A DNA stretch of 64,000 bases from Euryhalocaulis caribicus (GTDB taxonomy: Bacteria; Pseudomonadota; Alphaproteobacteria; Caulobacterales; Maricaulaceae), in the NCBI RefSeq assembly GCF_000412185.1, contig NZ_ASJA01000004.1, positions 1 to 64,000 on the forward strand, in the 5' to 3' direction. Made by a program: the position numbers and the translations under genes. The notes under the pieces are model-generated. The model searched no databases. It saw only the letters and a list, made by a program, of their open reading frames with translations, and had not been told where the DNA came from. Numbering within the stretch: position 1 is the stretch's first letter; each line of letters begins with the position of its first letter. Shown here one piece after another: positions 793 to 41,324 of this stretch.

Positions 793-1215
793 TCAGCGTG
801 TTGCGGATTTAACAGCCTTTAGCTCGATCGGCTCGTAATTTTCATCATGCTTGGCCAACACGCGTTCCGCGCGCAGTTTGCGCGCCGACTCAATCCGGCC
901 ATCGGCGATCACGCCCTGCCCCTCACGGAACAGGTCCGGAAGCGCGCCGGAATAGATCACGTCCACGGTCTCATCGCCGTCCGTCACCCGGAATGTGACA
1001 TCGGCCCCGTCGCCATAGCGCACGCTGCCTTCCTCCACGAATCCGCCCAGACGCACGCGTTCCCCGGCCTGCCCCTCGGCGGCCAGATCGCTGGGCGTCA
1101 TGAAATAGGAGATGTTCTCCTGGAGCGAGGACAGCGCCAGTGCGGCCGCCCCGCCCACCAGTATGGCGGCGACGGCGAGCGTGATCAGGCGTCGGTTTCT
1201 GTGCGGCGGCGTCAT
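793..1215 (-). CDS. ccmE: Cytochrome c maturation heme chaperone CcmE
   Basis: This 140-aa membrane-anchored protein has one N-terminal membrane segment (about residues 10-31) and an OB-fold periplasmic domain. It receives heme from CcmABCD and carries it to CcmF/H for attachment to apocytochromes c. The family signature is present: H123 is the residue that binds heme covalently and Y127 lies in the following HDENY motif. It is divergent from ccmA across a 66-bp gap, so both probably share a promoter region. ccmF, ccmG and ccmH are not in the window. Length and motif are normal for the family. Confidence 0.95.
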   Translation of the reverse strand: MTPPHRNRRLITLAVAAILVGGAAALALSSLQENISYFMTPSDLAAEGQAGERVRLGGFVEEGSVRYGDGADVTFRVTDGDETVDVIYSGALPDLFREGQGVIADGRIESARKLRAERVLAKHDENYEPIELKAVKSATR

Positions 1216-1281
1216 GGTGCGTACAGTATTCTCGCTAAGGCGCGGTTTTCTCTGCTATAGCGCGCGGATCGTTTCCTCGCC

Positions 1282-1938
1282 ATGCGTCGCGGGCGCCGCA
1301 AGAGCAGTTCCTTGACCGCCTTCCCTGCCTTCACATTGTCCTTTGACGATCTCTGCGCGCGGCGCGGGGGCCGCCGCGTGGTGGAAGGCGCTTCCGCGTC
1401 GCTGTCCAATGGCCGGCGGCTGGACCTGAAAGGCCCCAACGGCTCTGGGAAAACCAGCCTCCTGCGAATCTTCGCCGGCCTGATCCGCCCCGAGGACGGC
1501 CGCCTCTCCCTCGAGATTGGCGGCCGCGCCGTTTCCCCGCGCGAGCCCGGCCATGTCGCCTGGGTCGCCGACCGCGACGCCCTGCGCCCGGAGCTTACGG
1601 TGGCGGAGACCTTGCGCTTCTGGGCCGCCTTCCCCGCCATGACGGGCGGAGACTCCGCCCTCGCCGCACTGGGGCTCGAACCCTACGCCGATACGCCGGT
1701 CCGGCTCCTGTCGCGCGGCTGGCGGCGGCGCACGGCGCTGGCCCGCGCCCTGATGTCGGACGCCCCGATCTGGCTGCTGGACGAACCGTTTGCGGGTCTG
1801 GATGAAGATGGCGCGGACCGTTTCGGCGCCGCGCTGGGCGAACATCTGGCGCGCGGCGGCGGCGCGGTCATCGCCCGCCACGCGGCCAATGCCGGCCCTC
1901 CCGCCCACCTGACGCTGATCCTGGAGCGCCCGGAATGA
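1282..1938 (+). CDS. ccmA: Heme exporter ATPase CcmA
   Basis: This is the ABC ATPase of the CcmABCD complex that loads and releases heme on CcmE. Walker A (GPNGSGKT) is at residues 51-58, an ABC-signature variant (LSRGW) at about 143-147, and Walker B (LLDEPFAGLD) at about 165-174. The start is uncertain: family members usually begin close to the FDDLCARRGG segment, so an in-frame TTG at 1312, ten codons downstream, is an alternative. The stop overlaps the ccmB start by 4 nt, which indicates translational coupling in a ccmABCD operon. Confidence 0.93.
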   Translation: MRRGRRKSSSLTAFPAFTLSFDDLCARRGGRRVVEGASASLSNGRRLDLKGPNGSGKTSLLRIFAGLIRPEDGRLSLEIGGRAVSPREPGHVAWVADRDALRPELTVAETLRFWAAFPAMTGGDSALAALGLEPYADTPVRLLSRGWRRRTALARALMSDAPIWLLDEPFAGLDEDGADRFGAALGEHLARGGGAVIARHAANAGPPAHLTLILERPE

Positions 1939-2588
1939 ACGCCGCGCTCGCCATCTTCCTGCGGGAATTGCGGATCGGGGCGCGCCGTCCGGCCGTCTGG
2001 GCGTTCGGCCTCGCCTTCTTCCTGTTGTTCCTCATGCTTTCCGCGCTGGTGCTGGGGCCAGATCCGGCGCGTCTGCGCGCCGCGGCCCCCGCCATTGTCT
2101 GGCTGGCGGCGGTCTTCTCCATTCTGCTTTCGGTTCAGACCCTGTTCTCCGAACCGATCGAGGATGGCGAACAGGACTGGCTGATGACCCAGCCCGTCTC
2201 CCTGTCGGCCATCATCGCCGCGCGCCTGATCGCGCGCTGGCTGCTGACCGCCGCGCCGCTGGTCGTCCTCGCCCCGGCCGCCGCCATTGCATTCGCGCAT
2301 GATTCCGGCGGCCTGATCGCGCTTTCCCTGCTGCTGGGCAGCCCCGCCGCGCTGGGTTACGCCGCCGCCGGGGCCGCCTCGGGCGCCGGGGCGAAGGGCG
2401 CGGGCGGCATTCTCGGCCCGCTGATCGCCGGGCCGTTGATCGCGCCCGTGCTCATATTCGGCGTAGGCATGGCCCAGTCCGGCGCTATGTTCGGCCCGGA
2501 AGCGCGGGCGCTGCTGGCCGCCAGCCTGTTCGCCGCGGCCATATGCCCCGCCGCCTGCGCCTTGGCGCTGCGCGCGCAGGCCGACTAG
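1935..2588 (+). CDS. ccmB: Heme exporter permease CcmB
   Basis: This 217-aa inner-membrane protein has about six hydrophobic segments and the CcmB hallmark after helix 2 (QTLFSEPIEDGEQDWL). With CcmA and CcmC it forms the transporter-like complex acting on heme-CcmE. It overlaps ccmA by 4 nt and is followed 15 nt later by ccmC. Length is typical. The composition is very rich in Ala, Gly and Leu, as expected in this high-GC genome. Confidence 0.93.
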   Translation: MNAALAIFLRELRIGARRPAVWAFGLAFFLLFLMLSALVLGPDPARLRAAAPAIVWLAAVFSILLSVQTLFSEPIEDGEQDWLMTQPVSLSAIIAARLIARWLLTAAPLVVLAPAAAIAFAHDSGGLIALSLLLGSPAALGYAAAGAASGAGAKGAGGILGPLIAGPLIAPVLIFGVGMAQSGAMFGPEARALLAASLFAAAICPAACALALRAQAD

Positions 2589-2603
2589 GGATAGAAAACG
2601 CCG

Positions 2604-3362
2604 ATGCTCTCCTATTTCTCCAATCCCGCCCGGTTTGAACGCCTCGCCCGCCCCCTGGGCGCGGTCTTCGGGGCGGCCGCCGCGCTCTGTCTGGCCGGCG
2701 CCACGGTCTGGGGCCTGTTCCTGACGCCGCCGGATTCGGAAATGGGTTACGGATTCCGCCTGATCTATGTCCATGTTCCCGCCGCCTGGATGGCGATGTT
2801 CGTCTATGTCTTCATCGCCGGCGCGGCGCTGGCCGGCTTTGTCTGGCGGCATATGCTGGCCGATATCGCCGCCCGCGCCGCCGCCCCGCTGGGCGCGCTG
2901 TTCACCGCGCTGGCGCTGATCACCGGCGCGGTCTGGGGCAAGCCGATGTGGGGCGCGTGGTGGGTGTGGGACGCGCGCCTGACCTCGGTCCTGATCCTGT
3001 TCTTCATGTATCTGGGCCTGATGGCGATCTGGAGCCTGGTCGAGCCGACCCAGCGCGCCGCCCGCATCGCCGGGGCCGTGGCGCTGCTGGGCGTGGTGAA
3101 CATCCCGATCATCAAGTTTTCGGTCGACTGGTGGGCCGGGCTGCACCAGCCCGCGACCGTGATCCGCATGGACGGCCCGCGCATTGACCCCGCCATGTTG
3201 TGGCCGCTCCTCGTCATGGCGCTGGGCTACACCTTCTTCTTCGGCTGGGCGCAGCTGACGCGGATGCGCGCCGCGCTGGCCCGCCGTAGAGCGGAGAATG
3301 CGGCCAAACAGTCCCGCCCCTCGCGCGCGCGGCTGGAAACGCGGGAAGGCGGCGCATCATGA
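2604..3362 (+). CDS. ccmC: Heme lyase CcmC (tryptophan-rich heme handling protein)
   Basis: This six-helix membrane protein of the heme-handling family attaches heme to CcmE. The tryptophan-rich motif (WGAWWVWD) is at residues 116-123. The two conserved periplasmic histidines appear as H57 (YVHVPAAW) and H181 (WAGLHQPATV). At 252 aa it matches the family. Its stop codon overlaps the ccmD start by 4 nt. Confidence 0.95.
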   Translation: MLSYFSNPARFERLARPLGAVFGAAAALCLAGATVWGLFLTPPDSEMGYGFRLIYVHVPAAWMAMFVYVFIAGAALAGFVWRHMLADIAARAAAPLGALFTALALITGAVWGKPMWGAWWVWDARLTSVLILFFMYLGLMAIWSLVEPTQRAARIAGAVALLGVVNIPIIKFSVDWWAGLHQPATVIRMDGPRIDPAMLWPLLVMALGYTFFFGWAQLTRMRAALARRRAENAAKQSRPSRARLETREGGAS

Positions 3363-3739: not shown

Positions 3740-5308
3740 ATGGCTGAACACCGCGAAGAAGCGGTCTATCCCGAAGACCACAGGCCCAGCGCCATGCGCG
3801 GCTTCATCATTTCGCTGATCGTGGTGCTGACCGGCGCCGCGGCGCTGGCCGCCTACTGGACCATGACCAGCCGCCCGCTTCCCGAACAGCTACAGGGCGA
3901 CCTCGCCTCGGCCGACGCGATGGCCGCCTATGGCGTGATCGCGCTGATCCTGCTGGGCGCGCTGGTGTTCGTTTTCCTGGTCGGCCGGGCGCTCAGCCGC
4001 GCCTTCAGCCCGGATTATAGCGGCCCCTACCGGGTCTATCTCCTGTTCACGCTCGTGGCCGCGATGATCTCCGGCTACACCACGACTTATGGCGTGACCA
4101 TCGAATTTCTTGATCCCGCTCAAGGGTTTATCCGCTATCGCCTGTTCCCGGTCGTGGTCTTCCTCTACGCCTTCCTGTTCGTCTATCTGACATGGACCTG
4201 GACGTTCGATCTCGTCATCCGTCAGGACCATGAAGAAGGCGGCGCACGGCGCAACCGCTTCGCCGCGGCCTTCCTGATTCCGCTTCTGGCCGCCGTTCCC
4301 ATCTTCGCCGTTTCCACCACCACCAGCGCGCTGGGCCTGGCCGGTCCGCGTATTCTGGAACGTTCGGTGCTGGGCTGGATGGACGATTACACGCGCTCCA
4401 CGCGCAGTCTCGAAGGCTATATTCAGGACGCCGACTCCGTCGCGCTCAGCCTGGAGTCGCTCTCCACCCGCATGGAAACCCTCGCCGGGCAGGAGGCCGC
4501 CACGGGCGCGATTTCCGGCTATGCCGGCGCCGGCTCTGTGGTGAACCAGCTCAACAACGCCTCCGGCGACCTGCAACAGACCGCCGGTCTGGTGATGCGC
4601 GAACAACAGGCGCGTCTGGAGACCGTCGATGTCCTGGCCAACCGCCTCGACGGCGCCCGCGCCCGGGTTCTTGAGGGCGATTTCTTCCAGAATGCTCAAG
4701 GCGAGGCCCTGCCCGTGCGCGACTGGCAGGACCGCGTGCGCGGGCTGGAGCGGGAGATTGGCGGCGCCTGGGAAAGCGCCTCTTCGCGCTCCCATATCCG
4801 CGCCGCGTCAGGCCAGCTGGACCTCCTCGACGGCATCATTTTCGGCGGCGCGATGAGCGCGTCTTCCACCGTCGCCGATGCCCAGCGCGACGCGCGCGGC
4901 CAGATCTCGTCCTATCTCGGCAATGCCCGCGGCACCGTGAAGAACGAGATGAACCGCGCCCTGGCGGACACTCCGCCGGAGCCGCCGGAATTCACCTACA
5001 CCTCGCCGCTTCTGGTGCTGTTCAATAGCTGGGAACAGGCGATCCTGCCCTGGGTCATCGCCATCGCGGTCGATTTCGGCCCGTGGGTGTGGATCATGCT
5101 GGCCCTGATCGCCGGCTTCGACGAACGCTCCCGCAGCCGCGCCCGCTATGCCCACGCCCCTGCCAAGCGCCAGGGCTCCCCCTACCGCTCGGACCGCGAC
5201 GACGGCCCGGAGGGCGATGAGGAGACAAGAAAGCGCCGCAAGGGCGAGCCCCTCTTCGCCCCCGGCGCCAAGCGCAACGGCAATGGCTCAGGGCTGACCC
5301 GGCACTAG
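3740..5308 (+). CDS. Large polytopic membrane protein of unknown function
   Basis: I do not recognise this 522-aa protein. It has about five N-terminal membrane helices (roughly residues 20-42, 62-85, 98-118, 132-155, 172-195). A long soluble region (about 200-435) rich in Ala, Gln and Glu with heptad-like stretches follows, then a last helix or pair near 437-465 and a strongly basic, low-complexity C-terminal tail. No enzyme motif is visible. The layout resembles a sensor or scaffold with an extracytoplasmic coiled-coil domain. It follows ccmD after 225 bp with its own likely promoter, and ends tail to tail with the diheme cytochrome gene (4-nt overlap of the stops). Confidence 0.8.
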   Translation: MAEHREEAVYPEDHRPSAMRGFIISLIVVLTGAAALAAYWTMTSRPLPEQLQGDLASADAMAAYGVIALILLGALVFVFLVGRALSRAFSPDYSGPYRVYLLFTLVAAMISGYTTTYGVTIEFLDPAQGFIRYRLFPVVVFLYAFLFVYLTWTWTFDLVIRQDHEEGGARRNRFAAAFLIPLLAAVPIFAVSTTTSALGLAGPRILERSVLGWMDDYTRSTRSLEGYIQDADSVALSLESLSTRMETLAGQEAATGAISGYAGAGSVVNQLNNASGDLQQTAGLVMREQQARLETVDVLANRLDGARARVLEGDFFQNAQGEALPVRDWQDRVRGLEREIGGAWESASSRSHIRAASGQLDLLDGIIFGGAMSASSTVADAQRDARGQISSYLGNARGTVKNEMNRALADTPPEPPEFTYTSPLLVLFNSWEQAILPWVIAIAVDFGPWVWIMLALIAGFDERSRSRARYAHAPAKRQGSPYRSDRDDGPEGDEETRKRRKGEPLFAPGAKRNGNGSGLTRH

Positions 5309-6429
5309 GACCGGCAGGCCCCGTCCATCCCGGCAATCCACGCCTCCACCAGCGCCGCGCCTTCCTCGTGAACCAGGCTCCGGCCCAGTTCCGGCATCAT
5401 GATGTCGGGGGCGTCGGAGCGCATGCGGAACAGCAGGATGGATTCATCCGGCGCGCCCGGCGTCACGCCATAGGTGTGCCCGCCGGACCCGCGGCCCGCC
5501 GCGATGGGCGGCTTGCAGACGCCCAGATGCGCGTCCTCCTCCGCCTCCACATTAAGGTGCAGGCCTGACGTATCGGCCGGTCCGGCCGGGTTGTGGCAAT
5601 GGGCGCAGTTCACGTCCAGATAGGCGCGCGCACGGGCCGTGACGGGGGCGGATTCATCGTCCCAGACCGCGAGGGCCGGGGCGGTTTCAGCCGCCGGCGC
5701 GCCGACCAGATAGCCGGCTTCCACCAGTTTCGCGATCTGGTTCTGCGCGCCTTCGGCGTAGGCATAGGTCTTGTTCAGATTGCGCGGCTTGGGGCCGATG
5801 GGCCGGATTTCGCGGGTCGTGTTGTTGGTCGCGTGACAGCCTTTGCACTGGTTCGCATCGGGCACGATATAGGCGAAATCCCGCGGCTGGCCCTCATCTT
5901 CCAGCGTCAGGCGCTTCACCGCGCCCCCTCTTTGCAGCGTCGCCTCGCTCTGTTCGGCGTTCCAGACATATGGAAGCGCCCTCCAGCCGCCCTCGTCCCG
6001 GATCAGAAGCCGGGTCTCAATCAGGCGAACCTGGTCCAGTTTCAGCCCGTTTCCGGCCCGTTCCGAGGCCGTTTCGGGGGCTTTTGCGACCCTGCCCGGG
6101 GCGGTTCCGCGCGGATAATAGAAGGTCTTGGTGATCACCGTGCCCACGGGGAAGTCCAGAACATCGCCTTCCCGGTATTGCGCGGACGCGCCTTCGGGCA
6201 TCCAGACCGTGCGTAATTTGTGCGCGTAATCGGTGAAAAGCGGCGTGTTCAGGTCGTAAGGCGTGACGCCCTCGCCCAGTTCCAGCGCGCCATTGGCGGC
6301 CGTCACCAGCCCCCAATCGCTCAAATTTACCGGGTTGTCGTCATGCAATGTGACCGTTTGCGGCGGGCTTTCGCCGCCACAGGCGGCCAGAACCAGCGCG
6401 CAAACGCCCGCCGATAGCGCCCGGATCAA
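5305..6429 (-). CDS. Diheme c-type cytochrome lipoprotein (SO2930/HNE_0200-like)
   Basis: This 374-aa exported lipoprotein has its lipobox cysteine at residue 17 (LVLAAC). Two CxxCH heme sites are visible, CKGCH at 195-199 and CAHCH at 275-279. The second lies in a typical cytochrome c tail ending in a PELGRSLVHEEG segment. This matches the uncharacterised SO2930 (HNE_0200) family, which is known to occur beside a beta-helix lipoprotein, as it does here. It overlaps the upstream beta-helix gene by 4 nt and is the last gene of a four-gene leftward operon. It probably passes electrons in the periplasm or at the outer membrane; the partner is unknown. Confidence 0.88.
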   Translation of the reverse strand: MIRALSAGVCALVLAACGGESPPQTVTLHDDNPVNLSDWGLVTAANGALELGEGVTPYDLNTPLFTDYAHKLRTVWMPEGASAQYREGDVLDFPVGTVITKTFYYPRGTAPGRVAKAPETASERAGNGLKLDQVRLIETRLLIRDEGGWRALPYVWNAEQSEATLQRGGAVKRLTLEDEGQPRDFAYIVPDANQCKGCHATNNTTREIRPIGPKPRNLNKTYAYAEGAQNQIAKLVEAGYLVGAPAAETAPALAVWDDESAPVTARARAYLDVNCAHCHNPAGPADTSGLHLNVEAEEDAHLGVCKPPIAAGRGSGGHTYGVTPGAPDESILLFRMRSDAPDIMMPELGRSLVHEEGAALVEAWIAGMDGACRS

Positions 6430-7658
6430 GGCGCCGGGGCGGCCAGCGAGACCGCCGGCAGGGGTTCAATCGGGCAATCCGCGCCGCCATCGACGATGCG
6501 CGGGTCGGAAAAATCGTTCGGGGCGTCCAGATTCATCACCTCGGCGTCGCCATTATCGACGCAGAGCACCGGATCAGCGCCGCCCTCGCGGGCATAACCG
6601 TCCCACAATACGTCCGGCAGGCGGCCAGTCGGCCCGAATTTCAGCACGCGCAGCGCCTGAAGATCCATATTGTCCGGCGATCCGCCGCCCCCGGCGAAGT
6701 CGTTTCCGTGCACATAGATGCGCTCCGGATACGGATCGAACGCGTCGGCGGTGTCGAATTGCTCGGTATAGCCGCTGGTATAGTAGGAGGAGACGATCAC
6801 GTTCGCCGTCTTGTTGTTGGAAATCTCGTTATCGAAGATCTCCACGGCGTCGTTGGAATTGATAATCACGCCCGTCCCGGCCGGAACGCTGGCCACCGCC
6901 GTGCCTTCCGCGCCGAAATTGCGGGTGTTGTTCTCGAAAATCCGGTTCTCATAGACGCGCGTCGTGTGCCCGGGCTGGGGCAGGTGCGGCATGTTGAAGA
7001 CCAGGATTCCGCCCGTGTTTTCGGTCGCCACATTGCCGTAAACGTCCGCGCCGATGGTGTTTTCGATCTCGATCCCCGCGACATTGTATTCGGCGCGGTT
7101 GTTCCGGACGATCACATTGCGCGACTGGCCGACATAAATGCCGGCGTCGGAGGCGGCGATGGCGACGCTATCCTCGATCAAAACGTTCTCGATCTGCACC
7201 GGATAGATGCCATAGGCGCCGTTTTCGGTGTCCGGCCCGTTCGTCCATTCCGTGCGCAGGCCGCGAATGACGACATTCTTGCCCTCATTCACCTTCAATG
7301 CGTCGCCGATCGTGTCCTCGATGGCGAGGTTTTCGATGGTGAAATCGCTGGCCGTGACCAGCAAACCTTCCGCCCCGGCGATCTGATCGGCGAAGCTGAG
7401 GATGGTTTCGTCCATCCCCTGCCCCCGGATCGTCACCCCGTCCGTGGTCAGGCTGAGCGAGCGGTCGAAGGAGAATTTGCCCGCCGGGATCTCGATCACG
7501 TCGCCGGGCTGCGCGTCCAGCAGGGCGGTGCGCAACGTATCCTGGTAGGAAGCATCCGCTTCCTGCGCCGGTCCGGCGGACTGATCGCCGCCGTCGCCGC
7601 AGGCGGAAAGGCCCAGAGCGCCGGCCAGGCCGGCAAGAATCATCGTCTTTTTCATCAT
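6426..7658 (-). CDS. Parallel beta-helix repeat lipoprotein
   Basis: This 410-aa lipoprotein has its lipobox cysteine at residue 20 (GLSAC). An N-terminal segment has the pectate-lyase-like phrase VIEIPAGKFSF followed by ...VTIRGQG. Successive beta-helix rungs rich in Asn, Val and Ile follow (NVIVRNNRAEYN, GADVYGNVATENTGG). The fold binds or cleaves polysaccharides in related families, but no catalytic set can be named here. The family is known to travel with the diheme cytochrome encoded next to it. It starts directly after the stop of the diiron gene, with no gap, so translation is probably coupled. Confidence 0.88.
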   Translation of the reverse strand: MMKKTMILAGLAGALGLSACGDGGDQSAGPAQEADASYQDTLRTALLDAQPGDVIEIPAGKFSFDRSLSLTTDGVTIRGQGMDETILSFADQIAGAEGLLVTASDFTIENLAIEDTIGDALKVNEGKNVVIRGLRTEWTNGPDTENGAYGIYPVQIENVLIEDSVAIAASDAGIYVGQSRNVIVRNNRAEYNVAGIEIENTIGADVYGNVATENTGGILVFNMPHLPQPGHTTRVYENRIFENNTRNFGAEGTAVASVPAGTGVIINSNDAVEIFDNEISNNKTANVIVSSYYTSGYTEQFDTADAFDPYPERIYVHGNDFAGGGGSPDNMDLQALRVLKFGPTGRLPDVLWDGYAREGGADPVLCVDNGDAEVMNLDAPNDFSDPRIVDGGADCPIEPLPAVSLAAPAP

Positions 7659-8741
7659 CTATTCCGCCGCCGCCCCGGTGCCCGCCACCGCATTCACATA
7701 GGCGCTGCGGGCGTCGAAATCCTTGGCTTTCGCCTCGTCGTCTTTCTGGAGTTCTTCGGGGTCCAGATCCTGGAAATGCAGCACGCCCATATCCTCATAG
7801 GCGTTGCGCACAGGCGCGCCCCACAGGCCGATATCCTTGACGATCGGCACAATGCGCTGAAACAGGAGCTGGCGGTAAAGCTGAACGATTTCAGACTTTT
7901 CCGTCCATTCCTTGCACTCCTTCTGGTTCAGATCGAGCGCCTCGTACATTTCCGAGGCGTCGGTCATCCGGTCGCGCATCAGATAGCAGGCCTCGACCAG
8001 AAATTCCTCGCGTTCGGCGCGCTCGGCGTCGCTCAGCTCCGGGTAATAATCGCGCAGCGTCAGACGGCCGAAGGCGACGTGGCGCGCCTCGTCCTCCATC
8101 ACGAAGGCGTTCACCTGCCGCGCCAGCGGATTCTGGGCGATGTCGCGGATCGTGCCGAAAGCGGCCAGCGCCAGCCCCTCGATCACCACCTGCATGGCCA
8201 GATAGGTCATGTCCCAGCGGGAATCGCGCAGCGCCTGATCCACCAGCTCCTGCAGCGGCCCGGTCATCGGATAGGCGACGCCGAATTTCTCCAGCAGCTT
8301 CTTGTAGGCCTCCACATGCCGCGCCTCGTCCATCACCTGGGTGGAGGCGTAGAACTTGGAATCGAGGTCCGGCACCTGCTGCACGATCTTGGAGGCGCAG
8401 AGCAGCGCGGCCTGCTCGCCCTGCAGGAACTGGGAGATATTCCAGGCCTGCATGTGGCGGCGCACCTCGATGCGCTCCTTCTCGTCCATCTTCTCCCAGA
8501 TGGGTGAGCCGTAAAGGCCGTTGGCCTCGTCCGGCATCTGCATGGGATTCTCGAAATCTATGTCCTGCGACCAGTCGATGCGTTCGACCGCGTCCCACTG
8601 CATGTCCTTGCCCTTCTGGTAGAGGTGCATGAGCGACATGCGCCCCTCGTCGAATTCCCAGTCGAACACGGCGTCGAATTCCTGGGGCACGGTCCAGGCC
8701 GGGTCGATGTCCGGCATCGGATACAAATCACGCAGGGACAT
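7659..8741 (-). CDS. R2-like ferritin-fold diiron protein
   Basis: This 360-aa protein carries a full set of carboxylate-bridged diiron ligands in a four-helix pattern: E109, the E139-x-x-H142 pair (DEARH), E188 and the E218-x-x-H221 pair (EDEARH). That is the ribonucleotide-reductase-R2/oxidase arrangement rather than storage ferritin, so an O2-dependent oxidase or oxygenase is likely. No signal peptide is seen, so it is cytoplasmic. The ATG at 8741 is chosen because GGAGGAG lies 6 nt upstream; an earlier in-frame ATG would add 15 residues. It overlaps the upstream hydroxylase gene by 14 nt. Confidence 0.88.
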   Translation of the reverse strand: MSLRDLYPMPDIDPAWTVPQEFDAVFDWEFDEGRMSLMHLYQKGKDMQWDAVERIDWSQDIDFENPMQMPDEANGLYGSPIWEKMDEKERIEVRRHMQAWNISQFLQGEQAALLCASKIVQQVPDLDSKFYASTQVMDEARHVEAYKKLLEKFGVAYPMTGPLQELVDQALRDSRWDMTYLAMQVVIEGLALAAFGTIRDIAQNPLARQVNAFVMEDEARHVAFGRLTLRDYYPELSDAERAEREEFLVEACYLMRDRMTDASEMYEALDLNQKECKEWTEKSEIVQLYRQLLFQRIVPIVKDIGLWGAPVRNAYEDMGVLHFQDLDPEELQKDDEAKAKDFDARSAYVNAVAGTGAAAE

Positions 8742-9708
8742 TGGTTTCTCCTCCCATGGGTGGGGCTTGCGCGTCGTTGCGCGCATCCTCGTCCCGCGGA
8801 GCCTTTATGTCGCCCTTGCGGGCGAGGCTCTCTTTCCAGCGGGCCTTGATCGTTTCGGACGTGTCCCGGCTGCCGTCCGGCGACCAGCCGGGCGGGCGGA
8901 ACGCATATCCGAAAGCGTGACCGACGGAGCGGGCGGACGCGACGTCCTTCCCGATCCCGTACCATTCATGGAAGGCGACCTTCAGCGGATTGAAGGTGCC
9001 GAGATTTCTGACAATGCCGTAGCGGCAGGGCTCGTCGTCGCGCTCCGGCTCGAACGTGCCGAACATGCGGTCCCAGACAATGAAGACGCCGGCATAGTTG
9101 GAATCCAGGTAGCGCGGATTGGTGGCGTGATGGACCCGGTGATGGGAGGGGGTGTTCATCACCGCCTCGAACCAGGGCGGGAAACGCTTCACCGCCTCTG
9201 TATGGATCCAGAACTGATAGATCAGGTTCAGCCCGCTGACGAAGGCGATGATCACCGGGTGGAAGCCCAGCAGGGCCAGCGGCGTGCCGAATATGATGAA
9301 GGAAAAGGTCAGCTGCCCGGTCCAGGTCTGCCGCAGGGCGGTGCTGAGATTATAATGCTGGCTGGAATGATGGATGACGTGCGCGGCCCAGAACCAGCGA
9401 ACCCGGTGCGAGGCGCGATGCCACCAGTAATAAAGGAAGTCGTCGCCGATGAAGGCGATGGCGAACGCCCACCAGGCAAAACCGATATCGAACAGGGCGA
9501 ACTGGTAGACGAACATCGACCAGCCGAAAGCCAGGAAGCCGAACAGGACGCCGGAAATGGTGTTGCCCAGCCCCATCATCAGGCTGGTCAGCGTGTCGCG
9601 CGGCTCATAGCGGCCGCGGCCCGTGAAGCGGACAAACAGCATTTCCGCGAGGATCAACCCGACAAAGGCGGGTATCGCAAAAGTAACGGGATCCGGCAGT
9701 TCCGGCAT
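8728..9708 (-). CDS. Sterol desaturase / fatty acid hydroxylase family membrane protein
   Basis: This 326-aa membrane protein has about four to five hydrophobic segments and the three histidine clusters of the fatty-acid-hydroxylase superfamily: HRASH at 97-101, HVIHH at 110-114 and HHRVHH at 189-194. These bind a non-heme diiron centre on the cytoplasmic face and support O2-dependent hydroxylation or desaturation of lipids, sterols or carotenoids. The substrate is not identifiable. It is the first of four coupled leftward genes ending at the diheme cytochrome. The hydrophilic C-terminal tail (about 40 residues) overlaps the next gene. Confidence 0.9.
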   Translation of the reverse strand: MPELPDPVTFAIPAFVGLILAEMLFVRFTGRGRYEPRDTLTSLMMGLGNTISGVLFGFLAFGWSMFVYQFALFDIGFAWWAFAIAFIGDDFLYYWWHRASHRVRWFWAAHVIHHSSQHYNLSTALRQTWTGQLTFSFIIFGTPLALLGFHPVIIAFVSGLNLIYQFWIHTEAVKRFPPWFEAVMNTPSHHRVHHATNPRYLDSNYAGVFIVWDRMFGTFEPERDDEPCRYGIVRNLGTFNPLKVAFHEWYGIGKDVASARSVGHAFGYAFRPPGWSPDGSRDTSETIKARWKESLARKGDIKAPRDEDARNDAQAPPMGGETNVPA

Positions 9709-9721
9709 CGTCCATCAGGCG

Positions 9722-10138
9722 CTAGCGCCCTGTCTCCCCAATACGGCGCGCCCATTCGCGCGCTTCTTCTTCGCTTTCCAGCATAAGCGAAACACGGCCC
9801 AAGGTGAAATCGGAAAGCCGCAGCGACAAATTGCCGCTGCCGTCAACGTCAACCACGCGAATATCGGCCGGAGCGAGCAGCCGCGTAACCACGTCCACGC
9901 CCCGCACGACGGCCAGCCCGACCCGGTTGGACGCCTTGTCCGCGACCAGCGCGGCCAGACCGTCCGTGGAGACCACGCCCTCGCCCGCTTCGAACCCCGC
10001 CAGGTCGTTTTCCAGGCGCACGGCCGCGGCCTCGACCGAATCCATCAGGCCCGGCTTGAGGCCGGTGAGCCAGATATTGATGCCGAAGAGGGCGAGAATG
10101 GCGGCGAAGGACGCCGCGATGATCAGGAGCGTCGTCAT
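9722..10138 (-). CDS. Small membrane-anchored hypothetical protein
   Basis: This 138-aa protein has one N-terminal membrane helix (about residues 3-26) followed by a soluble domain of about 110 residues. No known motif is visible. It lies 13 nt upstream of the hydroxylase gene on the same strand and may lead the operon. The C-terminal part (residues about 95-135) alternates short beta strands with an acidic helix ([13 protein letters not shown]). I do not recognise a family. Confidence 0.7.
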
Positions 10139-10222: not shown

Positions 10223-12898
10223 CTATTTGCGCAGGCGCAGCGTCACGCCATACGTCGCCGGGTCGCCCGGATAGACGTTGTAGCTGGTGCCGAGGTAACC
10301 GACCGACGGGAAACCGCCTTTGGTGTATTCCTCGTCAAAGATGTTGCGCCCCCAGAGCTGGACCTGCCAGCCGCCATCCGCGCCGCCAAGGCCGACGCTG
10401 GCGTTGAACAGGGCGAAGTCGTCCTGATTGGCGAAGGGACGCGGGTCCAGGCTGGTCGTGTGAGCGAATTCGGAGGTGTAGGTCACCTCGCCGCGCACGA
10501 AGCCTTCCATCGTATTGCCGATCGGCTGGGTATAGGTGCCGGTCAGCGAGCCGACGAAGTCCGAATTGCCGCGGTCAACGCCCGTCAAGTCGTTGAACGA
10601 CGCCGTTACGCCGCCTTCGTTCGTGCGCTCATTGCCCGGCAGGCAAAGCTCGAACATCGGATCGGACGGATCGAAACTGTCCGGGCACGGCGCGAACTGA
10701 TAATCGCCATATTCATTGTGGAACAGCCAGGTGAAGCCGCCCGTGAAGAACAGGCGGTCCGTGGGCGCCCACTGGCTCTCGAACTCAAGGCCCGCGACTT
10801 CGATGGAGCCGGCATTGTCCAGAGCGAAGCCGTTGCCCACGAAATTATTGGACTGGAAGTCCTCGATTTCCTGCGCGAACAGCGCCACCGCGTAGATGAA
10901 GCGGTTATTGCCCAGAGCGCCCTTGGCGCCGATTTCGGCGGACTGCGCCTGTTCGTCCTGGAACTCGAACACGCCGGTCTTGGCCGCGTCCACAGAGACG
11001 TTGAACCCGCCCGGCTTAAAGCCGGTGGCGTAGCTGGCGTAGACATTGAAGGTCGGCGTCACGTCATAGGACGCGATGACATTGTAGGAGAAGTTGGAGT
11101 CCGACCGGCTGTCCGGGAAGGCCGCGGCGTTGACCGGCGGCCAGTTCTGGAACGCGGTGAAGCCCAGCAGCTGGTTGATCGCCGGGTTGCGCGCCTGTTC
11201 GTCGGTCAGCGGCTGCGTCGGGTCGAACGGCAGCCCCGCCCCGGCCAGCAGCGCCGGGATCAGATAGGCGCAGGCGTCGCCGCCGATGATCGGGAACAGC
11301 GTCGGGTCGCAGGTGGTCGGCGACACAAGGCGCAAATCCTGGCCGACATCAACAAAACTGAACGCCGAAATCGGGTCCGGATTGTTGATGTTGGTTTCCA
11401 TGTCCTTGTCTTCTTCGGCGTAACGCGCGCCCACCGTCATGGTCAGCTTGTCGGTGAGGTTGAAGTCCAGCTTGCCGAAGATGGAGACCGCTTCAGTGTC
11501 GTAATTATACGCTTCGCTGATCAGGCCATGCTGGGTGGAAATGAAGCCTTCGGCCGGAACCGTCGGCAGCGAGGCGTTGCCGGAGGGCAGCGGCACGAAA
11601 TTGCCCACGCCCGCGGCATTGTTGTTGTTCAGGAAGAACTCCAGCAGCGACACGCCGCCAAGGCCGGGCGGCAGGCCCAGACCCGCGACGATCGGAGCAA
11701 CCTGCGGCGCGGAGGCAAAATCGAAGAAGGCCCGCGCATCGGCCCCGTAAGGCGTGGCGTTCGTGTATTCCAGCTCGTTCTTGTAGTAGAACGCGCCCGC
11801 CATCCAGTCGATGAAATTACTGCCCGTGGAGGCGAAGCGGAATTCCTGGGTGAAGGAATCGTATTCGTTGGTGATCGCCCGCGTGCTGACCAGGTCGAGG
11901 TCGGAGAAGTCCGCATCGAACAGCTGGTCTTCGTCATAATGACGATAGGCGGTGATCGAGGTGAAGGTGAACGTGTCGAAGTCGTGGTTCAGCTCGCCGG
12001 AGATGCCGGAGGTTTTCAGCTCCGTGCGGACATCGCCGTCAATCGCGATATCGCCGTCGAACGGATCGGCCGGCAGGGCCGTGCCGCCGAGACCGACAAG
12101 CGCGGCCTGGTCGATCGGGTCATAGAAGGCAAACGGCGCCGCGCAGCAATTCTCGTCAATCACGCCATAATCGCCGATGATGCGGATCGAGGTATTCTCG
12201 CCCGGCTCGATCAGCAGCTGGCCGCGATAGGTCTGACGGTCGCGGTTATTGATCTGGCTGCCGTCGGTGACGTCTTCCAGATAGCCGTCATTGGTGTGGT
12301 AGCTGGCGTCGAAGCGGCCGGCCATCAGGCCTTCCACGATCGGCCCGGTGATTGAGCCCTTGGCGATGAACTGGCCGTAATTGCCGGCCGTCAGCTCGCC
12401 TTCCGCCCCGAAATCATATTCCGGCTGCTTGGTGATGATGCTGACAACGCCCGCCGGGGTGTTGCGCCCGAACAGCGTGGATTGCGGACCGCGGATCACT
12501 TCCACGCGCTCCACCGAGATCAGGTCGTTGATCGCAGAGCCCGTGCGCGGACGATAAACGCCATCGACGAACACGCCGACCGAAGGCTCAAGGCCCGGGT
12601 TGAAACTGGATGTTCCGATCCCGCGCAGCGCAAATTCGGTATTGGTGGACGAGGCGAACTCGGCGACCCGCAAGGACGGCACAAGCGTCATCAGGTCGGC
12701 GGCGTCGCGAATCTGGGATTGCTCAATCTGCTCGTCAGTCACGACGGCCACGGAAACCGGAGTTTCCTGTAGCGTCTGTTCGCGCTTTTGCGCGGTGACC
12801 GTGATCTCGTCGATCTGGGCGTGCGCCGCCCCCGTGACGATCAGGCTGGTGACGATGGCCGTGGAGCCAAGCGTGGCGAGTTTCGAAATTCTGGACAT
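10223..12898 (-). CDS. TonB-dependent outer-membrane receptor
   Basis: This 891-aa receptor has a signal peptide (cleaved near AHA-Q at about residue 28). A TonB-box-like segment follows (ITVTAQKREQ), then a plug domain with the usual VERVEVIRGPQSTLFGRNTPAG segment, and a 22-strand barrel with a C-terminal LRLRK. A double cysteine (ENCCAAP) in an early loop may form a disulfide. It imports a large or scarce ligand across the outer membrane. The divergent catabolic genes (13043-18480) suggest an organic substrate such as a terpenoid, sterol or ester rather than iron, but that is inference. A strong GGGGGG ribosome site precedes the start. Confidence 0.93.
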   Translation of the reverse strand: MSRISKLATLGSTAIVTSLIVTGAAHAQIDEITVTAQKREQTLQETPVSVAVVTDEQIEQSQIRDAADLMTLVPSLRVAEFASSTNTEFALRGIGTSSFNPGLEPSVGVFVDGVYRPRTGSAINDLISVERVEVIRGPQSTLFGRNTPAGVVSIITKQPEYDFGAEGELTAGNYGQFIAKGSITGPIVEGLMAGRFDASYHTNDGYLEDVTDGSQINNRDRQTYRGQLLIEPGENTSIRIIGDYGVIDENCCAAPFAFYDPIDQAALVGLGGTALPADPFDGDIAIDGDVRTELKTSGISGELNHDFDTFTFTSITAYRHYDEDQLFDADFSDLDLVSTRAITNEYDSFTQEFRFASTGSNFIDWMAGAFYYKNELEYTNATPYGADARAFFDFASAPQVAPIVAGLGLPPGLGGVSLLEFFLNNNNAAGVGNFVPLPSGNASLPTVPAEGFISTQHGLISEAYNYDTEAVSIFGKLDFNLTDKLTMTVGARYAEEDKDMETNINNPDPISAFSFVDVGQDLRLVSPTTCDPTLFPIIGGDACAYLIPALLAGAGLPFDPTQPLTDEQARNPAINQLLGFTAFQNWPPVNAAAFPDSRSDSNFSYNVIASYDVTPTFNVYASYATGFKPGGFNVSVDAAKTGVFEFQDEQAQSAEIGAKGALGNNRFIYAVALFAQEIEDFQSNNFVGNGFALDNAGSIEVAGLEFESQWAPTDRLFFTGGFTWLFHNEYGDYQFAPCPDSFDPSDPMFELCLPGNERTNEGGVTASFNDLTGVDRGNSDFVGSLTGTYTQPIGNTMEGFVRGEVTYTSEFAHTTSLDPRPFANQDDFALFNASVGLGGADGGWQVQLWGRNIFDEEYTKGGFPSVGYLGTSYNVYPGDPATYGVTLRLRK

Positions 12899-13042: not shown

Positions 13043-14281
13043 ATGAAACGCATCGTCTGGGCGGCGGCGGCCGTGGTTGTAATCGTCGTTGTGGCCGCGC
13101 TTGGCTGGTATTTCCGGCCCTGGTCGGATTATGCGCCGGCCAAGATTGCGCGGCTGAACGCGCCGGAAAATTACCCCCAGACCTTCCGCGCCATGGACGA
13201 GATTTTCCCGCACCGGGAAATCGCGGCCAATACGGACGCCGCGCCCCTGCCCCGCAACGAACAATCGCTGGATCTGACCTATGACTGGCAGGGCGAGGAA
13301 AAGAGTCTCGACCAGTTTCTGGAAGAGGCCAGAACGCTGGGCTTGATCGTGCTGAAAGACGGCGCGGTCGTGCATGAAGAATACCGCATGGAGGCAGGCC
13401 CGGACGACCGCTTCACCTCATGGTCTGTCGGGAAAAGCTTCGTGGCGACGCTGGTCGCGATGGCGATGCGCGACGGCCTGATCGACAGCCTGGACGATCC
13501 GGCGGAAAAATACGCCGTACAGTTTGAAGGCTCCGATTATGGCGAGACATCGCTGCGTCACCTTCTGATGATGTCCGCCGGCATGGATTTCAACGAGGAT
13601 TACGGCGCGCCCGATTCGGATATCGACCCGTTCTTCTTCGACGCCTTCATCATGGGCAAGAATGTCGACGAGATGGCCGCCGCCATCGAACGCGACCGCC
13701 CGGCGGGCGAGGACCTTCACTATGTCAGCCCGAACACGCACGTCCTCTCGGCGGTCGTGCGCGCCGTCTATGACAAGCCGCTGGCCGCCATCATGGAAGA
13801 GCAGATCTGGAAACCGCTGGATATGAGCGGCGACGCCTACTGGTCCCAGAACGTGCAGGGCGGGGACGGCATCGCCATCGGCTATTGCTGCCTCAATGCG
13901 AGGCTGGAGGACTATGCCCGCTTCGGACAATTCTATCTTCAGGACGGGGTATGGGACGGCCAACGCCTGCTGCCAGAGGGGTGGGTGACCATGGCGACCA
14001 CCCCGCAGGCCCCGTTTCAGGAGCCGGGCGCGACCTATGACATTGTCGGCTATGGCCTGCATTTCTGGGTTCCGCAGGACGCGGACGGCGAATTCCAGAT
14101 GGCCGGCGTGTTCGGTCAATATATCTGGGTGGACCGGAAGCGCGGCGTGGTGATCGCCCGCAACTCGGCCGACCCGGAATTCGGATCGCGCCTTGGCGAA
14201 GCCATCACCGTCATGCGCGCCATATCCGCGGCTGTATCGCCCGAACCCGAAACGGAAAGCGCCGAGGCGGAGGCCCCGTAA
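13043..14281 (+). CDS. Beta-lactamase-fold serine hydrolase (esterase/amidase)
   Basis: This 412-aa protein has an N-terminal membrane anchor (about residues 4-23) and a class C beta-lactamase/penicillin-binding fold. The catalytic S-x-x-K is S128-V-G-K131, and the second motif appears as Y227-x-S-x-N231. Relatives are esterases or 6-aminohexanoate-oligomer hydrolases, so the call is a hydrolase of unknown substrate acting in the periplasm. A good ribosome site (GGGGAGGAA) precedes the ATG. Its stop overlaps the next start (TAATG), coupling it to the GMC oxidoreductase. Confidence 0.88.
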   Translation: MKRIVWAAAAVVVIVVVAALGWYFRPWSDYAPAKIARLNAPENYPQTFRAMDEIFPHREIAANTDAAPLPRNEQSLDLTYDWQGEEKSLDQFLEEARTLGLIVLKDGAVVHEEYRMEAGPDDRFTSWSVGKSFVATLVAMAMRDGLIDSLDDPAEKYAVQFEGSDYGETSLRHLLMMSAGMDFNEDYGAPDSDIDPFFFDAFIMGKNVDEMAAAIERDRPAGEDLHYVSPNTHVLSAVVRAVYDKPLAAIMEEQIWKPLDMSGDAYWSQNVQGGDGIAIGYCCLNARLEDYARFGQFYLQDGVWDGQRLLPEGWVTMATTPQAPFQEPGATYDIVGYGLHFWVPQDADGEFQMAGVFGQYIWVDRKRGVVIARNSADPEFGSRLGEAITVMRAISAAVSPEPETESAEAEAP

Positions 14282-15891
14282 TGGCCGCGAAACAGGCGCT
14301 GGAATTCGACTATGTGATCGTCGGGGCCGGATCGGCGGGCTGCACGCTGGCCGGGCGTTTGTCGGAAAATCGCGACGTCACGGTCTGCCTGCTGGAGGCG
14401 GGCGGATCGGACGACAAGGCGATCATCCGCACGCCCATGCTGCTGCAGAACGCCATGACCACCCCGGCCATCAACTGGGACTACGAAACGGTCCCGCAGC
14501 AGCATCTGAACGGGCGCACGCTCTACTGGCCGCGCGGCAAGACGCTGGGCGGGTCCAGCTCCATCAACGCCATGCACTATATCCGCGGCGCGCGGGAGAA
14601 TTACGACGAATGGGCGGCGACCTATGGCGCTGAAGGCTGGTCCTGGGAGGACTGTTTCCCGAAATTCCTGGCCCAGCAGGACCAGGAGCGGGGAGAGAGC
14701 GACCATCACGCCACGGGCGGCCCGCTGCGCGTGCAGGATATCCAGCCGATCAACCCGATCAGCGAATTGTTCATTCAGGCGGCGGCGGAGCTTCAATATC
14801 CGCTGAACGCCGACTTCAACGGCGCGCGTCAGGACGGCTTCGGCATCTATCAGGTCACCCAAAAAGGCCCGCGCCGCTGGAGCGCCGCCGACGCCTTCCT
14901 GCGCCCGGCGCTGGAACGGGAGAATCTGACCGTCATCACGGACGCCCTCACCCATCGCGTCCGGCTGGACGGCAAGCGCGCCACCGGCGTGGTCGCGGAG
15001 ATCGAGGGCGCGCCGGCCGAGATCACCGCCCGCAAGGAGGTGATCCTGTCCGGCGGCGCGATCAATTCGCCGCAGCTCCTGCTGCTGTCGGGCATCGGGC
15101 CGGGACAGGAAATTCGCGGCGCCGGCGTGACCCCGGAAATCGACTTGCCGGGCGTGGGCAAAAACCTTCAGGACCATCTGGACGTGACGGGCCAGATCAA
15201 GATGCGCAGCGCGCGCTCTATCGGGCGCAGCTGGCGCGCCGCGCCCAAGCTGATCGGCGACGTGCTGCGCTGGATGATACGGGGCGACGGCGATTTCACG
15301 GTCAACCCGATCCAGGGCGGCGCTTTCGTGAAATCGTCCCAGTCCGACGGTCTGCCGGACCTGCAGCTGGTCTTTATCCCCTCGCTCTCCGCCCCGCACG
15401 GGCGGGAGACGATCTACGGCCACGGGGCGACGCTGCATGTCTGTCACCTCTACCCTCAGAGCCGCGGCGAAATCCGCCTCGCCTCCGACGATCCGCGCAT
15501 GTACCCGCTGATCGACCCGAATTATCTCTCGGCGGAAGAGGATCTGGAGGCGCTCACCGACGGGCTGGAAATTGTCCGCCGCGTCCTGAACGCCCCGGCC
15601 TTCGCGGAGGAGCGCGTGGCGGAACTCCTGCCCGGCGATTTGAAGGTCACGCGGGACGATCTTCGCGACGATATCCGCGCCCGGGCGGAGACGCTCTATC
15701 ACCCGACCAGCACCTGCGCGATGGGCGATGGCGAGATGGCGGTGACCGATCCGCGCTGCCGTGTCCGGGGGGTCGAGGGGCTGCGCGTGGTGGACGCCTC
15801 GGTCATGCCCCGCCTTGTCGGCGGCAACACAAACGCCCCGACGATTATGGTCGCGGGCCGCGCGGCTGATATGATCGCCGCCGACGCCTGA
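14281..15891 (+). CDS. GMC-family FAD alcohol oxidoreductase
   Basis: This 536-aa flavoprotein is of the choline dehydrogenase/alcohol dehydrogenase type. The FAD-binding GAGSAG motif is at residues 15-20, the GMC signature GKTLGGSSSINAM lies near residues 90-105, and the catalytic His/Asn pair maps to H474 (YHPTSTCAMG) and N516 (GGNTN). It oxidises an alcohol to an aldehyde. The next gene encodes an aldehyde dehydrogenase, so together they would take an alcohol to the acid. No export signal is present. Confidence 0.93.
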   Translation: MAAKQALEFDYVIVGAGSAGCTLAGRLSENRDVTVCLLEAGGSDDKAIIRTPMLLQNAMTTPAINWDYETVPQQHLNGRTLYWPRGKTLGGSSSINAMHYIRGARENYDEWAATYGAEGWSWEDCFPKFLAQQDQERGESDHHATGGPLRVQDIQPINPISELFIQAAAELQYPLNADFNGARQDGFGIYQVTQKGPRRWSAADAFLRPALERENLTVITDALTHRVRLDGKRATGVVAEIEGAPAEITARKEVILSGGAINSPQLLLLSGIGPGQEIRGAGVTPEIDLPGVGKNLQDHLDVTGQIKMRSARSIGRSWRAAPKLIGDVLRWMIRGDGDFTVNPIQGGAFVKSSQSDGLPDLQLVFIPSLSAPHGRETIYGHGATLHVCHLYPQSRGEIRLASDDPRMYPLIDPNYLSAEEDLEALTDGLEIVRRVLNAPAFAEERVAELLPGDLKVTRDDLRDDIRARAETLYHPTSTCAMGDGEMAVTDPRCRVRGVEGLRVVDASVMPRLVGGNTNAPTIMVAGRAADMIAADA

Positions 15892-15920: not shown

Positions 15921-17342
15921 ATGAGCGATATCGACGCCCGTCAGATCGAACGGATGAAATCCCTTCTGGCCAGCCAGCAGGACGCTTTTGCGCGTGACCG
16001 CCACCGCCCGCTGAACGAGCGCAAGGCGGACCTTGAGGCCGTCCAGACCCTGACCGCCGCCCATGCCGGCGAAATCGCTGACGCCATAGCCAGCGATTAC
16101 GGCGTCCGCTCGAAAGCGGAGACGCAGCTGGGCGAGATCGGCTTCGTGCTGGCGTCCGCCAAACACGCGCTGAAGAATCTGGATAAATGGGCGAAGCCGC
16201 AAAAGGCCTCCGTCCCGATGACACTGGCCCCCGGCAAGGCCTATGTCCGGCGCGAGCCGAAGGGCGTGGCGGGCATCGTTTCACCCTGGAATTATCCCTA
16301 CCAGCTGGCCATCGCGCCGCTGATCGCCGCGCTGGCCGCCGGGTGCCGCGCCATGATCAAGCCCAGCGAATACACGCCCGCGACGGCGGAGCTGATGCAG
16401 CGCCTGCTGGGCGAGCGATTTTCCGAAGATCAGGTGGCGGTGGTCACCGGCGGGCCGTCCGTGGGGGAGGCCTTCACCGCCCTTCCCTTCGACCACCTCT
16501 TCTATACCGGCTCCACCCATGTCGGCCGCATCGTCGCCAAAGCGGCGGCGGAAAACCTGACGCCGGTGACGCTGGAGCTGGGCGGAAAATCGCCGGCCAT
16601 CGTCACCGAGTCCTATGAGACGAAGGACCTCATGAAGCCGCTGGCCTGGGGCAAATTCTTCAATGCCGGCCAGACCTGCGTGGCGCCGGACTATGTGCTG
16701 GTCCCCAATCGCCGGGTCGAGGAAATCGGCGAGGCGCTGATCGCGACGGTTTCGGACTTCTATCCGGACCTTTCCAGCGATGACGACTACACGGCCATCG
16801 TCTCCCAAAAGCATTATGACCGCCTCAGCGGCATGATTGAGGAAGCGCGGGCCGCCGGCGCCCGCATTCTTCAGCCCGAACATGACGCCGAGGCCGCAAG
16901 GGCGGCGCGCAAGATTCCCCCGACGGTCATCCTGAACCTGCCCGAAGACAGCCCGCTGATGCAGGAGGAAATCTTCGGCCCGGTCCTGCCGGTCCTTGGC
17001 TATGAGCTGCTGTCCGGAGCCATCGATTTCGTGAATGGCCGCGACCGGCCGCTGGCCCTTTATGTCTTCTCGAAAGAAAAGAGCCAGTCCCGCCGCGTGC
17101 TGGAACAGACGATGTCCGGCGGGGCCTCCGTGAACGCCACCATGCTGCACCTGTCAGTCGAGGACATGCCCTTTGGCGGCGTCGGAAAGAGCGGCTATGG
17201 CGCCTATCACGGCGAGCGCGGCTTTCTGGAATTCACGCATGAGCGGTCCGTGTTCGAAGCGCCGGTCTGGCATCCTTCGCGCCTGATCGCGCCGCCTTAC
17301 GGCAAGATGTTCGACTTCATCGCGGGCCTGCAGAAGCGCTGA
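15921..17342 (+). CDS. NAD(P)-dependent aldehyde dehydrogenase (coniferyl-aldehyde type)
   Basis: This 473-aa enzyme has all key residues: N124 (SPWNYP), the general base E219 (ELGGKSP) and the nucleophile C253 (GQTCVAP). The N-terminal SKAETQLGEIGF segment and short overall length match the coniferyl/fatty aldehyde dehydrogenase subgroup. It lies 29 bp after the GMC oxidoreductase in the same direction and probably oxidises its aldehyde product. The real substrate may be an aliphatic, terpenoid or aromatic aldehyde. Confidence 0.93.
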   Translation: MSDIDARQIERMKSLLASQQDAFARDRHRPLNERKADLEAVQTLTAAHAGEIADAIASDYGVRSKAETQLGEIGFVLASAKHALKNLDKWAKPQKASVPMTLAPGKAYVRREPKGVAGIVSPWNYPYQLAIAPLIAALAAGCRAMIKPSEYTPATAELMQRLLGERFSEDQVAVVTGGPSVGEAFTALPFDHLFYTGSTHVGRIVAKAAAENLTPVTLELGGKSPAIVTESYETKDLMKPLAWGKFFNAGQTCVAPDYVLVPNRRVEEIGEALIATVSDFYPDLSSDDDYTAIVSQKHYDRLSGMIEEARAAGARILQPEHDAEAARAARKIPPTVILNLPEDSPLMQEEIFGPVLPVLGYELLSGAIDFVNGRDRPLALYVFSKEKSQSRRVLEQTMSGGASVNATMLHLSVEDMPFGGVGKSGYGAYHGERGFLEFTHERSVFEAPVWHPSRLIAPPYGKMFDFIAGLQKR

Positions 17343-22816: not shown

Positions 22817-22828
22817 GGGCTTCTCCGT

Positions 22829-25149: not shown

Positions 25150-25289
25150 AATCTCCCCTTTAAAGGCGATCTGACGCCGCCTCTCCCTCACGTCAGCGTA
25201 AGCATGCGCCCGCCGAATGCGAGGGGCAAAACCGCGCGGCCCGCGTTTTCTTTTGGTTCAGCTGTGCACGCCTTTGCGCTACAAGCGTA

Positions 25290-40659: not shown

Positions 40660-40703
40660 GGTCCTGCTCCCACTAAAGGCGAACGTAGTCTTCCCGCCCA
40701 CGG

Positions 40704-41238: not shown

Positions 41239-41324
41239 GACACCACACGGCCGGTCCCGGACCGGCTCCTTCCACTTGTCAAAGCGCTAGGGATCACTTC
41301 GTACGCGGCCGGCTTCGGCCCGGA

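Follow-up and report, generated by a model that had tools for sequence, protein, structure and literature searches.

Four closely packed genes of Euryhalocaulis caribicus raise the question of whether two putative oxygenases and two exported lipoproteins form one functional unit. The genes lie on the minus strand in positions 1 to 64,000 of contig NZ_ASJA01000004.1, the 64,000-nt stretch analysed here and hereafter called the window. They encode, in the order of reading, a membrane fatty-acid-hydroxylase family protein (FAH), an AurF-like soluble diiron protein, a beta-helix lipoprotein (BH) and a diheme cytochrome lipoprotein (CYT). We found that these genes form the end of one arm of a larger, two-armed oxidation island, and that the run joins two separately conserved modules, namely this island and the TIGR03805/TIGR03806 lipoprotein pair. 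Although it does exist in this genome, the four-gene unit is not a conserved one; what deserves study is the broader island, together with a cytochrome P460-like reading of CYT.

The run itself stands much as the initial annotation described it. According to open reading frame (ORF) coordinates, the overlap is 14 nt between the FAH and diiron genes and 4 nt between BH and CYT, and BH directly abuts the diiron gene (0 nt). A codon-usage gene caller chose the same four genes; the longest in-frame ORF of the diiron gene would begin at 8786. A promoter scan found none, and 10 terminator-like sites were observed vs 7.0 in shuffles. Both predicted diiron-type proteins were confirmed at the family level: FAH scored 106.9 bits against Pfam FA_hydroxylase PF04116 (cut-off 31) and the soluble protein 84.4 bits against Pfam AurF PF11583 (cut-off 29.6), the sole Pfam family above its cut-off. 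The label 'R2-like' given to the latter was loose, and the R2-like ligand-binding oxidase model NF006200 was rejected (35.6 bits, cut-off 194). BH and CYT exceeded the curated NCBIfam cut-offs of TIGR03805 beta_helix_1 (437.9 vs 141.5 bits) and TIGR03806 (402.9 vs 313.3 bits), respectively, and are thus the known pair without a named function that had been proposed. The claim of two exported lipoproteins, one with two hemes, also held: a lipobox-like LSAC or LAAC, assigned by eye from sequence, follows a short N-terminal stretch in both, and CYT has two CxxCH motifs. Among homologues, whose starts were unrefined, the strict lipobox pattern occurred in 39/55 CYT ORFs and 36/56 BH ORFs.

The extent of the unit, taken by the initial annotation to be four genes, proved larger. 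Upstream of FAH are a gene for a small protein, D138, whose stop lies 13 nt from the FAH start, and one for a TonB-dependent receptor (TBDR); a divergent arm encodes a beta-lactamase-fold hydrolase (BLA), a GMC-family oxidoreductase (GMC) and an aldehyde dehydrogenase (ALDH). The block ALDH-GMC-BLA / TBDR-D138-FAH-AurF, with divergent arms, recurs at diiron-gene loci of relatives. Among 80 such loci, the best 80 of 137 relatives and many of them ending at contig ends, FAH and D138 were near the diiron gene in 33, TBDR in 28, BLA in 27, GMC in 25 and ALDH in 16. The genera represented include Maricaulis, Oceanicaulis, Robiginitomaculum, Marinicaulis and Parvularcula. Lipoprotein genes were found within 10 kb at none of the 80 loci, including the 33 with both oxygenase genes. 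One further genome, G010, has the island FAH, D138, TBDR, BLA and GMC; its diiron gene and BH are both absent.

Table 1. Genes of the four-gene run and of the surrounding island (window coordinates)
Gene	Coordinates	Strand	Product	Remark
CYT	5305..6429	-	SO2930-family diheme c-type cytochrome lipoprotein (TIGR03806); predicted N-terminal cytochrome P460/c'-beta-like domain and C-terminal c-type heme domain	TTG start
BH	6426..7658	-	Right-handed parallel beta-helix lipoprotein (TIGR03805)	
AurF-like diiron gene	7659..8741	-	AurF-like soluble diiron protein	ATG at 8741
FAH	8728..9708	-	Membrane fatty-acid-hydroxylase family protein; eight-histidine motif and four further residues corresponding to ones essential in alkylglycerol monooxygenase	
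D138	9722..10138	-	Small protein (138 aa) with one N-terminal hydrophobic segment	In relatives conserved just upstream of FAH
TBDR	10223..12898	-	TonB-dependent receptor	First gene of the FAH/diiron arm
BLA	13043..14281	+	Serine hydrolase of the beta-lactamase fold; hydrophobic segment at the N-terminus	Divergent arm
GMC	14281..15891	+	GMC-family FAD oxidoreductase, choline-dehydrogenase-like	
ALDH	15921..17342	+	Aldehyde dehydrogenase	Closest NCBIfam model is benzaldehyde dehydrogenase MdlD, below its cut-off

The lipoprotein pair was surveyed separately. In 61 genomes (our own and 60 relatives) we inspected 36 further BH loci, with at most 8 kb per side and less at contig ends. CYT adjoined BH in 35 of them, and FAH or AurF was near BH in none. 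Across 299 genomes sampled from the phylum Pseudomonadota, BH exceeded its cut-off in 29. A wider set of 20 loci, drawn from the 24 additional over-cut-off genomes (G298, G249, G183 and G289 were left out), gave the same picture: CYT adjoined BH in 20/20, FAH or AurF was near BH in 0/20, and a TonB receptor lay inside the locus in five. At three loci (L206, L211 and L224) BH and CYT are fused as a single ORF of 880 to 1019 aa, which supports a joint function of the pair. Second BH copies for which the surrounding stretch held no CYT match were seen at L060 (genome G025, 7557-9143) and L242 (genome G393). A PDB sequence search with BH returned only short emerin matches (0.007-0.01). Shewanella SO_2930 is given as outer-membrane or extracellular in the accessible part of PMC4837345. 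No functional study of the TIGR03805/TIGR03806 pair was found in the literature searched, which mostly excluded subscription papers.

The join of the pair to the oxygenases was thus present at 0/80 diiron-gene loci, 0/36 of the relatives' pair loci and 0/20 of the wider pair loci, and on these counts the four-gene operon was rejected as a conserved unit. The initial annotation had held that a pair usually occurring without the oxygenase genes would speak against the four working together, and this was largely the outcome of the gene-neighbourhood survey.

We then considered what each protein might do. The motif histidines of FAH are residues 97, 101, 110, 113, 114, 190, 193 and 194. In the accessible part of PMC3617469 on alkylglycerol monooxygenase (AGMO), H201, W243 and D244 are described as general to the hydroxylase family, and Q162, D233, N235 and Y236 as additionally essential in AGMO. 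Residues Q127, D202, N204 and Y205 of FAH have the order and local spacing of the latter four as described there. The last three sit behind a loop that is 4 residues longer than in AGMO, in the pattern D-x-N-Y-x6-W-D. Among 15 island copies of FAH, the Q, D and N are kept in all and the Y in 13, with F in the other two. As these AGMO residues are kept and the pterin-binding glutamate of AGMO is absent, FAH may work in part like AGMO and is not classed as one. A PDB sequence search with FAH returned no matches.

In the soluble diiron protein, the ligand-type residues E109, E139, H142, E188, E218 and H221 were invariant in 10/10 aligned proteins. Its predicted model (mean pLDDT 76.2) matched aldehyde-deformylating oxygenase with a Z-score of 21.0 and a root-mean-square deviation (RMSD) of 2.7 over 207 aligned residues, and AurF with a Z-score of 20.4 and an RMSD of 4.1 over more residues, 284. 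For this predicted model the two fold matches are tied, and a common fold shows no function. Despite the similar fold, the aldehyde-deformylating oxygenase model TIGR04059 was rejected (22.3 bits, cut-off 222.65). AurF has a seventh ligand, a histidine four residues before the last ExxH. The corresponding residue here is V214, invariant in 10/10 aligned proteins, and this mark of an AurF N-oxygenase is thus absent.

CYT belongs to the SO2930-family of diheme cytochromes, which is spread over Pseudomonadota and has no named function. Both CxxCH motifs, R73, P94, K101 and M345 were invariant in 19/19 aligned homologues. The N-terminal domain of the predicted model (mean pLDDT 81.8) is beta-rich. 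In a VIA-align comparison of the model, the top 12 rows were all P460 or c'-beta cytochromes, with Z-scores of 5.2-7.2; the next row scored 3.6. The best row was 7s5o_A (Z 7.2, RMSD 3.6, 136 aligned residues). In single hhalign comparisons, a profile of the 19 CYT N-termini aligned to one of 22 P460-family proteins (of 23 loci) with an E-value of 3.5e-06, and of 1.6e-04 over 36 columns when the heme motifs were masked. The reversed control gave 0.068 and the C-terminal half of CYT gave 0.0031, or 0.1 masked. The Pfam P460 model matched 9/19 CYT homologues at an E-value of 0.1 or better (best 6.4e-05).

The alignment also places residues of the heme pocket. McP460 has Arg50, Pro71 and the cross-link Lys78, according to the accessible parts of PMC6427953 and PMC11928373. 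In alignment only, R73, P94 and K101 of CYT fall on this Arg/Pro/Lys pattern, with K101 at P+7 as in the Pro71/Lys78 pair of those sources. Five McP460-group residues are named in the accessible part of PMC6427953: Arg50 corresponds to the invariant R73 and Pro71 to the invariant P94, Asn55 to P78 and Ala58 to a variable position (A in 4/19), and Met104 was not placed. No residue of CYT could be matched to the distal carboxylate of P460, for which E138 is a candidate. Two CxxCH motifs were present in 53/55 CYT ORFs, the exceptions being L065, cut by a contig end, and L053, where the wrong ORF was picked. The pattern R..P.G....K.F occurred in 52/55; of the three exceptions, L052 and L224 carry a differently spaced P.G....K, and the third is again L053. 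A PDB sequence search with CYT gave two chance-like matches, and a search with CYT profiles gave small c cytochromes and other weak matches only, with no P460. Together, the predicted model and the alignment suggest that the N-terminal half of CYT resembles cytochrome P460/c'-beta in fold, with K101 aligned to the heme cross-link position. We consider this reading new: no earlier one was found in the literature searched, where diheme or fused P460 led only to anammox enzymes, and the words diheme, fusion and lipoprotein were absent on a term search of the accessible part of the 2025 P460 review (PMC11928373). It gives a widespread pair a concrete, spectroscopically testable hypothesis.

An AurF-like protein and a P460-like cytochrome could suggest N-O chemistry, in which the former makes an N-hydroxy compound and the latter oxidises it or a breakdown product. 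Membership of the diiron protein in PF11583 and a P460-like domain whose cross-link position holds a lysine are in line with this scheme, as is the oxidation of hydroxylamine by two of the three P460s in a table in the accessible part of PMC11928373. By contrast, V214 replaces the histidine presumed for AurF, AurF is tied in fold match with aldehyde-deformylating oxygenases, which rank first, the two proteins occupy different compartments, and the pair elsewhere occurs without AurF. We regard N-O chemistry as very improbable.

The connection between the pair and the oxygenases fails in its strict, four-gene form and survives in a looser one, as co-occurrence and closeness. Among 137 family genomes, 93 have BH, 66 the diiron gene and 52 BLA. 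BH was present in 60/66 genomes with the diiron gene vs 33/71 others (Fisher 1.5e-08), and in 50/52 genomes with BLA vs 43/85 others (Fisher 3.9e-09), both values uncorrected for relatedness; at genus level, in a smaller set, the counts were 9/9 vs 4/10 (p 0.011). In 23 of the 50 genomes with both BH and BLA, BH shares a contig with BLA or the diiron gene, and in 10 of these 23, from four genera, it lies within 16 kb of one of them. CYT adjoins BH in nine of the ten, so the whole pair is near the island in 9/50 genomes. The exception is G025, where the lone BH copy is ~11 kb from the island BLA gene. Six genomes (G000, G009, G362, G364, G392 and G400) have the diiron gene no more than 20 kb from the pair, and in G033, G408 and G396 the BLA arm alone is near the pair.

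These figures bear on the view that the parts are chance neighbours, the pair being a module of general use that has nothing to do with the oxygenases, and the join a neutral rearrangement. The probability of 10 near genomes by chance would be 5e-08, assuming 2 percent per genome and ignoring relatedness, and BH stands right behind ALDH, on the same strand, at two loci (L049 and L241). Both of these results, and the co-occurrence with the diiron gene, count against chance. The absence of FAH and AurF around all 36 and all 20 other BH loci counts for it, as do the 33 family genomes that have BH and lack the diiron gene. The same-genus genome G001 is also in its favour: it has no match to FAH, AurF, BH or CYT and is syntenic with the window only up to the gene that follows CYT, which together mark a rearranged spot. 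On balance, we hold chance neighbourhood to be possible and rather doubtful.

Inherited linkage without a functional link would explain the closeness differently: part of the family would descend from an ancestor that carried the pair downstream of ALDH, and this synteny would have been kept in the near cases and lost elsewhere. The nine near genomes other than our own all have BH on the strand of BLA and downstream of it, as would be expected from inherited synteny no less than from function. At the Maricaulis-type loci and those of a genus designated g7, BH lies ~6.5 to 10.6 kb downstream of ALDH, and the loci have in common the amidohydrolase-like and transporter-like genes that immediately precede it. 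This speaks for inherited synteny; these genes also stand beside BH at L037 and L039, whose island is elsewhere. The joins in the window (behind AurF) and at L049 and L241 (behind ALDH) depart from the layout of the Maricaulis and g7 loci, so that the closeness either survived rearrangements or arose anew. Inherited synteny could explain much of the closeness of pair and island; that it does so with no functional link at all we consider possible and just as doubtful as chance neighbourhood. As to how the join arose, g7 is among the closest relatives of both parts (AurF 82, BH 68 and CYT 61 percent), though the Maricaulis-type BH is equally close to that of the window (68 percent). Rearrangement of one island fits this better than import of one part.

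With somewhat less than even confidence, we favour the reading that the locus is an import-and-oxidise island for a hydrophobic compound, together with an exported P460-like redox module that stayed or came near it in several lineages. Beyond the observed gene content, order, conservation and join, we infer a substrate, an electron flow and a role for the pair as follows. A hydrophobic compound, possibly of ether type, would enter through the TonB receptor. FAH, AGMO-like and without the pterin glutamate, would hydroxylate it with O2, the product being an aldehyde where the attacked carbon adjoins an ether oxygen and an alcohol otherwise. GMC and ALDH would take the product on to an acid, BLA may release ester-linked parts, and the AurF/aldehyde-deformylating-oxygenase-like protein may perform a second oxygenation on an intermediate. 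Outside the inner membrane, the lipoproteins would form a redox module with the beta-helix as partner: the P460-like heme of CYT may bind or oxidise a small substrate, and the second heme would hand electrons on. A rearrangement in this lineage would have placed the pair behind the diiron gene, where it is probably translated with the oxygenases. Nothing pointing to hopanoids was noticed, no dedicated search for hopanoid genes having been made. A bolder version makes the SO2930-family an unrecognised branch of the P460 superfamily, in which a P460-type heme with a Lys cross-link is combined by fusion with a c-type domain that relays electrons. Anchored on the outer side of the inner membrane together with its beta-helix partner, the protein would act as a surface oxidase and, in this bacterial family, serve O2-dependent lipid or ether-lipid oxidation by the island; this we think unlikely.

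Several observations weigh against the import-and-oxidise reading with its redox module. Contact between the two modules would be hypothetical, with the pair exported and the oxygenases placed in the cytoplasm or the membrane. The exact join of pair behind AurF occurs in this genome only among those compared, and the consistent position downstream of BLA has the second explanation given above. BH is >80 kb from an island gene in 13 of the 23 same-contig genomes, and in G033 and G408 it is the BLA arm that has the pair beside it, with the diiron gene on another contig or ~229 kb away. At 47/80 loci, some cut by contig ends, the diiron gene was observed without FAH, and FAH-like proteins are present in 57/61 genomes (our own and the 60 relatives), so FAH alone is no marker of a special pathway. 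The tetrahydrobiopterin glutamate of AGMO, which follows the second motif His, is R102 in FAH and T in 14/15 island copies. For CYT, the P460 fold-match Z-scores are all below 8, Foldseek with the model gave no significant match, and the score against Pfam P460 PF16694, 20.2 bits, is under the cut-off of 27. Lys occupies the K101 column in only 10/22 P460-family sequences (L 5, M 4, R 2, G 1), and the lysine of CYT accordingly groups it with the cross-link-type members.

Other genes in the window were noted. Cytochrome c maturation genes lie near CYT at 793-3362 (CcmE on the minus strand, CcmA and CcmC on the plus strand), with 1935-2588 occupying the CcmB position, by position only. A gene for a 522-aa membrane protein separates them from CYT and runs convergently into it. 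Near the island are an oxidation-type gene for a Strictosidine-synthase/SMP-30-like protein (17389-18480) and a cluster encoding an FMO-like monooxygenase, an SDR and an alpha/beta hydrolase (21860-25191). Three consecutive flagellin-like genes (39826-43363) and a transposase-like ORF (51583-52542) were recognised by eye.

The components resemble known systems in part. The window's pair matches other TIGR03805/TIGR03806 pairs in that its members are adjacent and above curated cut-offs, and differs in being joined directly behind a diiron oxygenase gene. With cytochrome P460 and c'-beta, the N-terminal domain of CYT appears to share the fold, by ranking, the CxxCH and the Arg/Pro/Lys pattern; CYT differs in its added second c-type heme domain, longer loops and a sub-threshold Pfam score. 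The diiron protein has the ferritin-like diiron fold, in its predicted model, and the E/ExxH/E/ExxH ligands of AurF-type N-oxygenases and cyanobacterial aldehyde-deformylating oxygenase; it lacks the seventh His ligand presumed for the former. FAH shares with AGMO (TMEM195) the eight histidines and the essential Q, D, N and Y, and the animal pathway uses an aldehyde dehydrogenase next, as encoded in the island; FAH differs in the tetrahydrobiopterin position and in length (326 vs 445 aa). The island as a whole resembles in plan the Pseudomonas alk operon, which encodes AlkB, AlkJ, AlkH and AlkL. Common to both are a membrane diiron hydroxylase, a GMC alcohol dehydrogenase, an aldehyde dehydrogenase and outer-membrane uptake. 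By contrast, the island has a hydroxylase of another family and a TonB receptor in place of AlkL, and no rubredoxin was found among the nine island proteins scanned. If our reading is correct, the island would represent an oxidation route similar to that of AlkB, with an AGMO-like hydroxylase and a TonB receptor as its basis.

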